Assembly: GCF_026248685.1 (NCBI RefSeq)
Contig: NZ_CP111036.1
Location: 2,108,001 to 2,172,000, forward strand
From: Haladaptatus caseinilyticus
Lineage (GTDB): Archaea; Halobacteriota; Halobacteria; Halobacteriales; Haladaptataceae
Length of the DNA stretch: 64,000 bases
Reading direction: 5' to 3'
A model generated the notes under the pieces. It did no database searches and was not told the origin of the DNA. It saw only the letters and a program-made list of their open reading frames with translations. The position numbers and the translations under genes are program-made. Position 1 is the stretch's first letter, and every line of letters starts with the position of its first letter. Shown in pieces: positions 16,935 through 54,222 of the stretch.

Positions 16935-17255
16935 TTCGGCGAGTCACGACGGAGAGTGCGCGGTTGGCAAGTGACACGACCGACGAGAGTCGGCGGAAAA
17001 CCACCCGACAGGTTCGTGAATTTTCACCGGCACCAGAAATCTGCAATCGACACAACCGCCAGAGGACTAGTACACTCACCGCGAACGAGGAATGAAATAA
17101 CGAGCGAGTCGGCGACAGAACGGAGCCGGGAACCTCGCGGAGCGAGTAGTCCCGGCAAATGAAAGCGGAGTGCGTTGTCGAGCTTTTACGGGGGGCCGTC
17201 GGAAGGGGAGGTAACCGTCGCTCTACTCTGGTCGCGACCGTCGTGAAGGGTCGCG
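16935..17255. other. Gene-free stretch between convergent genes
   Basis: These 321 bases separate the ends of the cupredoxin gene and the atoE gene. No coding frame is convincing. The main structure is a nested hairpin at 17125-17156, which could serve as a terminator for one or both genes. The rest shows no repeat or RNA gene that I recognise. Confidence 0.5.
17125..17156 (+). terminator. Nested hairpin, candidate terminator/processing element
   Basis: An outer perfect 7-base stem GCCGGGA (17125-17131) pairs with TCCCGGC (17150-17156). Inside it a 5-base stem CTCGC (17134-17138) and GCGAG (17142-17146) closes a GGA triloop. It lies between two convergent genes. No T-run follows closely, so a standard archaeal terminator is not proven. 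Confidence 0.4.
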
Positions 17256-36612: not shown

Positions 36613-37074
36613 ATGTCCGTCATTGGACCCCTCCTACAAAACTACTGCGTCAGACGAGTATCATCTGTATGATCGTTTTGGACGAAATATGGTGAAAATG
36701 GGGTGAGAGGGTCAGGATGCTATTTGTCACTGTTCTATTTTTTCGATAGATCGGCGACCACCAACGGTGAAGAAGCATGCCGAACGATGACCGGTTCTCT
36801 TATTTTTAACATTTTCTGGATGCTCGCAGTCCACCGCGAGCGACGACGGAGGAGCGGGCCGACGACCGAGCGTCGCGTAGTTCTCGTGAACGAAGTGAAC
36901 GAGAGCAGGGAAGTGCTTGCCCCTCCCGTGTGAGTAGGACCGTCTTCCGGTGTCTTCGGTCGAACTTTGCCAGGGTGGCGAACGCGACAGCGTGATTCGC
37001 GCTGACACTACCGCTCGACCGTCGCAAAAGGTCGTGTCGAAAAGCATAATCCCCACGCTGCCAAACGCCCCGGT
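36613..37074. other. 462-base gene-free stretch between divergent genes
   Basis: This stretch lies between the divergent membrane protein and DUF5789 genes. It is AT-rich near 36640-36830, with a T-run (ATTTTTTCG at 36739-36747) and a TTATTTTTAACATTTT segment, and then becomes GC-rich. It includes the hairpin repeat at 36880-36905. Frames on either strand are short or Arg/Ser-rich and unconvincing. Confidence 0.5.
36880..36905 (+). repeat. CTCG...CGAG hairpin repeat, copy A
   Basis: Left arm CTCGTGAAC (36883-36891), triloop GAA (36892-36894) and right arm GTGAACGAG (36895-36903) form a hairpin with seven Watson-Crick pairs and a symmetric tandem G-A/A-G mismatch. A 26-base segment is 22/26 identical to copy B at 53966-53991. 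It lies in a gene-free stretch. Confidence 0.55.
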
Positions 37075-41319: not shown

Positions 41320-41341
41320 TACTCCGTCAGGGATTCGAACC
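41320..41341 (-). repeat. Partial copy of the tRNA-Glu 3' end (attachment-site-like)
   Basis: On the minus strand this 22-base segment, from GGTTCGAATCCC to GACGGAGTA, matches the 3' end of the tRNA-Glu gene (41431-41452) at 20 of 22 positions in the same orientation, 111 bases away. Similarity starts inside the T arm: the partner strand of the T stem does not match, so this is not a decayed whole tRNA. Such a partial duplicate is what a tRNA-targeting integrative element leaves behind. Confidence 0.55.
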
Positions 41342-41356
41342 ACCTGAAGACGCTTC

Positions 41357-41371
41357 CTCGCCTTCGGCGAG
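41357..41371 (-). repeat. Perfect GAA-triloop hairpin in the tRNA-downstream region
   Basis: On the minus strand CTCGCC, GAA and GGCGAG form a perfect 6-pair stem closing a GAA triloop. It lies between the tRNA gene and the duplicated 3' end and resembles the other CTCG...CGAG hairpins in the window. It could terminate or process the tRNA transcript. Confidence 0.45.
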
Positions 41372-41430
41372 ACTGCCTCTTTCGTACTTCAAATCCCAGA
41401 GCGTCCGCTTTTCCGAATGAAATGAGGAAA

Positions 41431-41505
41431 TGCTCCGTCAGGGATTTGAACCCTGGTCCTTGCCGTGAGAGGGCAAGATGATTGGCCGGACTACACCAAC
41501 GGAGC
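41431..41505 (-). tRNA. tRNA-Glu (anticodon CTC)
   Basis: On the minus strand the 75-base sequence folds as a complete tRNA. The acceptor stem is GCTCCGT with ACGGAGC and a discriminator A; the anticodon stem TTGCC/GGCAA closes the loop CTCTCAC with anticodon CTC; the T stem CAGGG/CCCTG closes TTCAAAT. CCA is not encoded. No intron is present. It is 367 bases upstream of queD. Confidence 0.95.
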
Positions 41506-53817: not shown

Positions 53818-54222
53818 TGCTAACCCCCGTCAACTCTGGTCAACGGTGGTGGTGTTAAGTGTTGAGGCAAACGTCGGAGGGAAATTTGAGACGCCTTGCA
53901 AACACGTTTGCCGCTTGATTTTCCCGGTCATGGGCCGTCCTGGCGAACGAGGGGCGACGACCGGCGTTCTCGTGAGCAAAGCGAGCGAGAGTGCGGATGA
54001 GCGAACTCCTCCGGTGAGAGAGAAACCCCTTTGGACCGACAACGCTCGGCAGTTTCGGCCGCTGCTCCGGTAAATGAAAACCCTGCGCCCGCAACGGACG
54101 CGTGGCGCAAACGGCGCCCTCAGCCCGTTCCTGTCTGTCGCTCGTCCTTCCTTTGTTCTGTCGGCAGTTCGTCCGAGAAAATCCCGCGATGACGCCGTTC
54201 AGTAGCATCCCCGGTCCCCCGA
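53818..54222. other. 405-base gene-free stretch upstream of the sod genes
   Basis: This stretch holds the sod promoter (TTAA-type box near 53855-53858) and a long GC-rich part up to the photolyase gene end. The hairpin repeat at 53966-53991 lies here, followed by more short inverted segments. No coding frame is convincing on either strand. Confidence 0.5.
53966..53991 (+). repeat. CTCG...CGAG hairpin repeat, copy B
   Basis: Left arm CTCGTGAGC (53969-53977), triloop AAA and right arm GCGAGCGAG (53981-53989). It is 22/26 identical to copy A at 36880-36905, with the A-T pair of copy A replaced by G-C (a compensatory change) and the tandem G-A mismatch kept. It sits in a gene-free stretch, like copy A. 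Confidence 0.55.

Follow-up and report, generated by a model that had tools for sequence, protein, structure and literature searches.

The intergenic spacers of Halobacteria contain a dispersed repeat composed of two adjoining hairpins, designated HP1 and HP2. This twin-hairpin repeat is class-wide in Halobacteria and, within the phylum sample analysed, restricted to this class. As an overall explanation, it is suggested with moderate confidence that the module is a REP-like dispersed DNA repeat, probably active as single-stranded DNA. Two copies of the repeat, A and B, are located in the window, i.e., the whole analysed stretch of 64,000 nucleotides (C1:2108001-2172000 of the 4.8 Mb genome of Haladaptatus caseinilyticus, the home genome), and comprise the following features:

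36875..36932, + strand: twin-hairpin unit, copy A (covariance model R1 with filters off, 64.1 bits; among the model's 30 building sequences)
36880..36906, + strand: HP1 of copy A; stem 36880-36887 with 36899-36906, tandem G-A mismatches 36888-36889 with 36897-36898, pairs 36890-36891 with 36895-36896, GAA loop 36892-36894 (sequence and RNA fold)
36908..36927, + strand: HP2 of copy A, degenerate, GGGAAG...CCTCCC, 5/6 pairs (sequence, hairpin finder)
53961..54018, + strand: twin-hairpin unit, copy B (covariance model R1 with filters off, 59.2 bits; among the model's 30 building sequences)
53966..53991, + strand: HP1 of copy B; G-C for A-T, T.G for T-A, AAA loop (sequence, RNA fold)
53994..54013, + strand: HP2 of copy B, CGGATGAG-CGAA-CTCCTCCG, 7/8 pairs (sequence, hairpin finder on locus L003)

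The first-pass annotation had drawn attention to the hairpins at 36880-36905 and 53966-53991, and the sequences confirm that these sites are identical at 22 of 26 bases. The fold claimed for both of them (a stem, tandem G-A mismatches, two pairs and a GAA or AAA loop) is reproduced by the sequence and by the RNA minimum free energy (MFE) structures, with an MFE of -10.9 kcal/mol on the + strand (z -3.71) and -6.0 on the - strand for HP1 of copy A, and -10.8 and -5.8 kcal/mol, respectively, for HP1 of copy B. The reported change of an A-T pair in copy A to G-C in copy B is present, and copy B also has T.G in place of T-A at another pair. The adjoining second hairpin had been overlooked, and the hairpins cited represent half of a larger unit. 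For the degenerate HP2 of copy A, the assignment is based on the alignment of loci L002 and L046 (86% over 100 bp); in L046, a Haladaptatus litoreus copy, the hairpin finder revealed a clean 8-bp stem at the corresponding position. Copy A lies in a divergent spacer between the genes of a DUF7139/DUF7140 protein and a DUF5789 protein. The genes on the two sides of copy B encode a photolyase and a superoxide dismutase and are both on the - strand, so the G-A strand of copy B is antisense to both neighbours. The HP1 core has two matches in the window versus 0.07 expected from shuffles, and, with up to three mismatches, 36 matches in the whole home genome versus 13 for the reversed pattern.

In general, the HP1 stem leads into a symmetric tandem G-A/A-G, which is topped by two pairs and a loop of three bases; the onset of HP2, as located by the hairpin finder, is mostly 4 or 5 bases past the core. 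Among the matches listed, a downstream HP2 was present at 66/103 haloarchaeal sites, compared with 8/103 in the upstream mirror and 35/515 shuffled segments at the same score. This count is the unselected test of HP2, since the pairing of HP2 is a selected feature in alignment A1 (n = 30), which includes both window copies and 28 of 34 non-redundant candidates, from 117 sites, chosen for a clean HP2. The stems of HP2 are highly variable in sequence, with the pairing kept. Both alignments used for the covariation analysis are biased towards the structure: the 30 chosen sequences contain both-sided changes at 12/19 pairs (covariation score 0.40 versus 0.15 when shuffled), and the 126 model hits contain them at 18/19 pairs (0.435 versus 0.162), with 93.3% of cells paired versus 30-55% when the partners were slid. 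The flank pair -1/+21, which is free of the search pattern, points in the same direction, being C-G in 58 and T-A in 49 of 120 sites (among the matches listed; this set, used for the tip pairs as well, includes 17 non-haloarchaeal sites). HP1 stems other than CTCG were also found with matching arms, and conserved tips sit on variable stems. Without the two outermost pairs, HP1 has 23 G.T versus 4 A.C, a count that rests on model-selected hits and on a model leaning towards G.U, and the T.G pair at the base of the stem is kept in 81/110 sequences. Kink-turns and kink-loops are characterised by a 3-nt bulge beside tandem G.A; HP1 is symmetric and contains no bulge, and this assignment was rejected.

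A scan of species-level genomes with the exact 21-base HP1 pattern gave at least 120 matching stretches; 104 of the 120 matches listed are haloarchaeal, and 16 belong to Omnitrophota, Peregrinibacteria/Peribacteria and scattered others. With up to one mismatch, the core was found in 82/145 Halobacteria genomes, and the reversed-pattern control gave 4 hits in 4 genomes. The covariance model of HP1 and HP2 has matches in 137/145 Halobacteria genomes, with 13 copies in the home genome and a maximum of 37 elsewhere. A phylum draw of 148 genomes yielded model matches in 22/24 Halobacteria and in 0/124 others; of the latter, 18 have a documented kinship, and the remainder were assigned from the genome numbering. 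An HP2-like downstream hairpin is present at only 1/17 non-haloarchaeal sites (among the matches listed, a viral contig included), and therefore these HP1 sites look convergent. Thus, the pattern and covariance-model searches found the element much more often than expected by chance, in the genome as well as in the class, and the covariation persists with more copies, which supports the part of the earlier proposal that described a dispersed element with compensatory change; the RNA level, which the same proposal had preferred to a DNA palindrome, was not established. Rfam searches found only tRNA at the gathering score, both in the window and at 11 loci searched at E<=1, where the other row was SorX (24 of 46.6 bits, E 0.084). 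No description of the repeat appeared in the search listings of the open-licence literature on haloarchaeal repeats, REP, MITE, PATE and terminators, and a 2025 survey covering bacterial and archaeal REPs contains no word that starts with 'halo' (PMC12306157).

The tip of HP1 follows a clear rule. Among the matches listed, 51 of the 86 one-mismatch variants differ at the middle base of the loop (G 30, C 13, T 8), which makes G-N-A the rule for most of the loops, and the tandem G-A is changed in 3/86. The stem base beside the mismatch is changed in 13/86 variants of the same listing, and 12 of these changes are T to C, with G opposite in all 12. In the home genome, the tip pattern alone has 64 matches versus 28 for the reversed form. 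A GNA or GNNA loop with at least two G-C pairs has been described as an extraordinarily stable DNA mini-hairpin, with GCGAAGC melting at 78 °C (PMC4686876), and a sheared G-A pair has been reported as typical of GNA loops (PMC6479982). The main HP1 tip has the same sequence as the GNA-triloop mini-hairpin d(GCGAAGC) and the same freedom at N, but in the repeat it adjoins the tandem G-A and stands on a longer stem. A flanking tandem G-A with this type of sequence is also stable in DNA; to our knowledge, GNA mini-hairpins are known as a physical structure and not as a genomic repeat family. The variable tip pair is G-C in 95 of the 120 sites (among the matches listed), and this main form fits the two-G-C sequence rule. 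The A-T form, that of copy A, is found in 19/120 of the matches listed and violates the rule, and the inner tip pairs of copy A are not formed under the ViennaRNA DNA parameters. In addition, the tip has lost one pair in 7/13 of the compared copies of genome G042, which breaks the GNA mini-hairpin rule.

Core sites are intergenic in 94/100 cases, as indicated by a custom gene finder, with about 18% of positions being intergenic. The model-hit set contains 97 of the 104 haloarchaeal loci and omits L033, L036, L039, L083, L042, L078 and L146; since the last three have sites in coding regions, the core count, not the model-hit set, provides the fair intergenic figure. No significant difference was found between core sites and spacers at large in the proportions of tandem, divergent and convergent arrangements (p = 0.17). 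Between tandem genes, 20 exact cores are on the strand of the genes and 34 on the opposite one, the model hits being divided 28 to 32 (p = 0.70); divergent spacers contain 31/126 model hits and 22/94 intergenic core sites. For the model hits, the median distance to the nearest gene edge is 166 bp, no promoter-like AT peak precedes HP1 (the AT fraction is flat, 0.34-0.38) and no T run follows HP2 (0.34-0.41). The strand neutrality, the distance from gene edges and the level AT content argue against an mRNA-borne function and against termination, and leave independent transcripts or DNA. The targeting of tRNA genes was also considered and rejected; the initial count (26/126 within 400 bp) included artefacts, as long introns were allowed, and stricter settings gave 16/101 sites versus 56/548 control positions within 300 bp (p = 0.12).

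Comparisons with relatives indicate a turnover of the spacers concerned. The HP1 core, with up to three mismatches, was found at 0/14 other loci for copy A and 0/19 for copy B, these sets including some distant or paralogous loci. Among the same-family loci of copy A, 7/9 retain both flanks in the expected order; of the other two, one shows a rearrangement and the other only the left flank; for copy B, both flanks are kept in 5/12 loci, and the others have mainly the dismutase-side flank. The middle of the spacer differs between relatives at both loci, but the spacers L184 and L199 of relatives contain tips of the HP1 type, so it is not strictly true that the element was replaced by unrelated sequence. 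The two C5 copies of the home genome (L004 and L006) have 82% identity over 109 bp on the same strand, and the inner HP1 tip is reversed within this same-strand alignment, which is an in-place inversion of the tip, seen in one pair from the own genome. Tandem repetition of the core was seen in some genomes; in G059, the repeated unit also includes an apparent 3' end of the neighbouring gene (loci L216 and L217, with HP1-type hairpins in the tandem repeat and cores 104 bp apart in L216).

Larger units were observed in two genomes. Thirteen stretches of G042 (of 24 model hits; chosen for scores in equal sets) are alike at 67-95% in segments of 48-522 bp. The similarity extends no further than ~350 bp to the left or right of the module, and inspection by eye of nine aligned copies showed inverted ends. 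Inverted arms enclosing the module are present in 3/3 copies of G138 (81-85 of 107-113 bases, with the right arm directly after HP2) and in 7/13 copies of G042 versus 8/78 swapped pairs reaching this score; with a higher score required, the test of both genomes gave 7/16 versus 0/78 swapped pairs. The minimum-energy folds, calculated with no shuffled control, agree with the enclosing arms. In G138 and in part of the G042 copies, the module is located inside a longer, itself repeated foldback. As a general rule, enclosure by a long foldback was rejected: in other haloarchaea, among the 116 hits (of 126) whose flanks were sufficiently long, it was found in 12/116 versus 9/232 swapped pairs (p = 0.03), and it is a minority feature. 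In one orthologous spacer of the G042 genus, inspected by eye, 5/7 genomes have versions of the element differing in inner hairpins, one has a remnant and one lacks the element. No clean target-site duplication was found at the copies. The signal from within-site direct repeats is small, with a mean of 3.94 versus 3.50 bases, 0/500 shuffles as high and near-duplicate copies included. Spanning direct repeats of at least 26 matched bases (one of six thresholds) occur at 12/99 sites versus 10/292 control positions, taken from the first 300 of 548 (p = 0.004), and this enrichment fits replication slippage or template switching.

The Y1 transposase family (Y1_Tnp, PF01797) is present in 99/145 Halobacteria genomes and absent from the home genome (G000; 6 cores) and from its congener G123 (7 cores), and no transposase, recombinase or binding protein was found for the module. 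The absence of Y1 at home, together with the enrichment of spanning repeats, favours a REP-like DNA repeat with an active single-stranded tip. According to this explanation, the module of HP1, a few bases and HP2 in the spacers of Halobacteria would work like a REP, BIME or small-mobile-repeat element. Its active form would be a single strand with the GNA/GA tip, exposed in replication, repair or recombination; the exposed strand would fold to a very stable mini-hairpin, which may prime template switching and/or be recognised by a candidate protein. Hairpin modules would consequently be copied, inverted, duplicated and re-inserted within spacers. As judged from the sequences, the GNA loop rule, the in-place inversion of the tip and the turnover of whole spacers between relatives would speak for DNA. 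The G.T excess and the conserved T.G appear to fit a strand-specific single-stranded fold and would suit RNA or single-stranded DNA alike, but the T.G conserved at the stem base (81/110) is a counter-point to the DNA reading, as RNA explains it more easily.

The conserved T.G also belongs to the arguments for a multi-copy structured non-coding RNA or RNA module, an explanation that we consider possible, if somewhat doubtful; such an RNA would be transcribed from promoters of its own, and a protein would bind to it via the GNA/tandem-GA tip. The strand-specific pairing of HP1 (G.T 23 versus A.C 4, with a selection leaning towards G.U), the RNA fold that gives the exact structure and the conserved tips on variable stems are consistent with it, but the hits have no link to the gene strand (28 same, 32 opposite), 31/126 of them lie in divergent spacers, the upstream AT-rich peak is absent, Rfam gives no match at the gathering score save tRNA (window and 11 loci), and the own copies are absent at the relatives' loci retrieved (0/14 and 0/19). 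The placement data make an intrinsic transcription terminator or 3' UTR hairpin extremely improbable; tandem hairpins between genes and an Omnitrophota HP1 copy with an adjoining A/T run resemble such signals, yet 22/94 intergenic core sites are divergent, both strands are equally used, no T run follows HP2 (AT 0.34-0.41) and the median distance to a gene edge is 166 bp.

Two further explanations concern DNA. The repeats might be functionless, self-perpetuating quasi-palindromes, which template switching would make, correct and invert with no dedicated enzyme, the stable tip surviving. The in-place inversion, the spanning direct repeats (12/99 versus 10/292, p = 0.004), the apparent gene ends tandemly duplicated with the hairpin and the variable spacers could be understood in this way, but template correction should erase the tandem G-A, which is changed in just 3/86 variants among the matches listed, and HP1 with a one-sided HP2 is kept class-wide and was not found beyond the class in the phylum draw; we regard this explanation as unlikely. 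Still less credible, and on the whole very improbable, is a near-terminal palindrome of an IS200/IS605 element or a PATE relic. PATEs and IS605-type ends are described as haloarchaeal palindromes (PMC3119063), but Y1_Tnp, present in 99/145 genomes, is absent from the core-bearing home genome and G123, and the similarity of the G042 copies ends within ~350 bp of the module.

Among described elements, those closest to the proposed REP-like repeat are the REPs of bacteria and, in Haloquadratum, the SMRs and PATEs. Bacterial REP/BIME/REPIN sequences are likewise short imperfect hairpins that are dispersed between genes, frequently in arrays, and have a conserved sequence specific to one strand, and the haloarchaeal repeat is a dispersed intergenic imperfect palindrome as well. 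REPs are usually reported in more than 100 copies per genome (PMC2817692), whereas the haloarchaeal repeat has at most 37 model hits per genome, a fixed HP1-HP2 pair and a class-wide conservation of sequence. Bacterial REPs are tied to a Y1-type transposase; the home genome has no Y1, and a cognate Y1 transposase is missing there. REPs associated with TnpA-REP possess a conserved 5' tetranucleotide guide beside the hairpin, and the HP1 flank, inspected for a guide of this type, has only a partial CG..GT preference. The SMRs of Haloquadratum walsbyi have been described as haloarchaeal, non-coding and transposase-free, with an unexplained mobilisation (PMC3119063), and the twin-hairpin repeat is also haloarchaeal and non-coding, with no transposase found for it. 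Compared by description only, SMRs differ in having ~80-110 bp and terminal inverted repeats, the A type mostly targeting PATEs as well as elements of the IS605 type. PATEs are also haloarchaeal, non-coding, palindrome-bearing and dispersed; they are described as related to IS605-type ends (PMC3119063), and the Y1 search revealed no such link for the twin-hairpin repeat.

A stronger version of the DNA explanation can be offered tentatively: the repeats may be haloarchaea-wide, transposase-free mobile foldback elements, where the signal would be a single-stranded DNA GNA triloop over tandem sheared G-A, and a putative, probably ancient haloarchaeal machinery would recognise this signal and copy, invert and re-insert the modules. 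If this is true, such elements would have shaped intergenic spacers across the class. The repeat could partly explain why haloarchaeal spacers are so variable and could be useful for annotation, and it raises the question of which protein or process, if any, reads the tip of the DNA mini-hairpin type. Mini-hairpins may be especially stable in the molar salt of haloarchaeal cells.

Several HP1 cores are found in other surroundings. In two Halogeometricum species and Halegenticoccus (L042, L078 and L146), the exact core lies within a predicted coding region, which, from an inspection of the reading frame by eye, probably encodes a biotin ligase. Four Omnitrophota contigs (L071, L099, L122 and L136) contain an exact HP1 in an A+T-rich context, behind strings like CCTTTAAGTTTCACCCAGTAAAATC and without HP2; this hairpin is possibly an unrelated regulatory hairpin or terminator. 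In Peribacteria (L085 and L148), the core is located 11 bp past the 3' end of tRNA-Glu, and in Peregrinibacteria (L080), it is located 11 bp past tRNA-Ser.

The window also contains two hairpins that had been listed as simpler relatives, CTCGC-GGA-GCGAG at 17134-17146 and CTCGCC-GAA-GGCGAG at 41357-41371 on the - strand. Both exist and are intergenic, but they have no tandem G-A, do not appear among the 4 model matches obtained at E<=1 with filters off, and they were excluded from the family; CTCG...CGAG frames are frequent in the window. The hairpin at 41357-41371 sits between a tRNA-Glu gene (41431-41505, - strand) and a sequence that repeats part of the 3' end of this tRNA (approximately 41321-41340, 18/20 bases alike by eye), and the region 41321-41505 resembles either what is left of an integrated element or the product of a local duplication. 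The other hairpin belongs to the spacer 17040-17200, which contains a ACACAACCGCC string and a hairpin GCCGGGA...TCCCGGC around CTCGC-GGA-GCGAG. Strings of the ACAACCGCC type recur in the spacers L183, L185 and L188 of the same genus and may be the mark of another repeat family.
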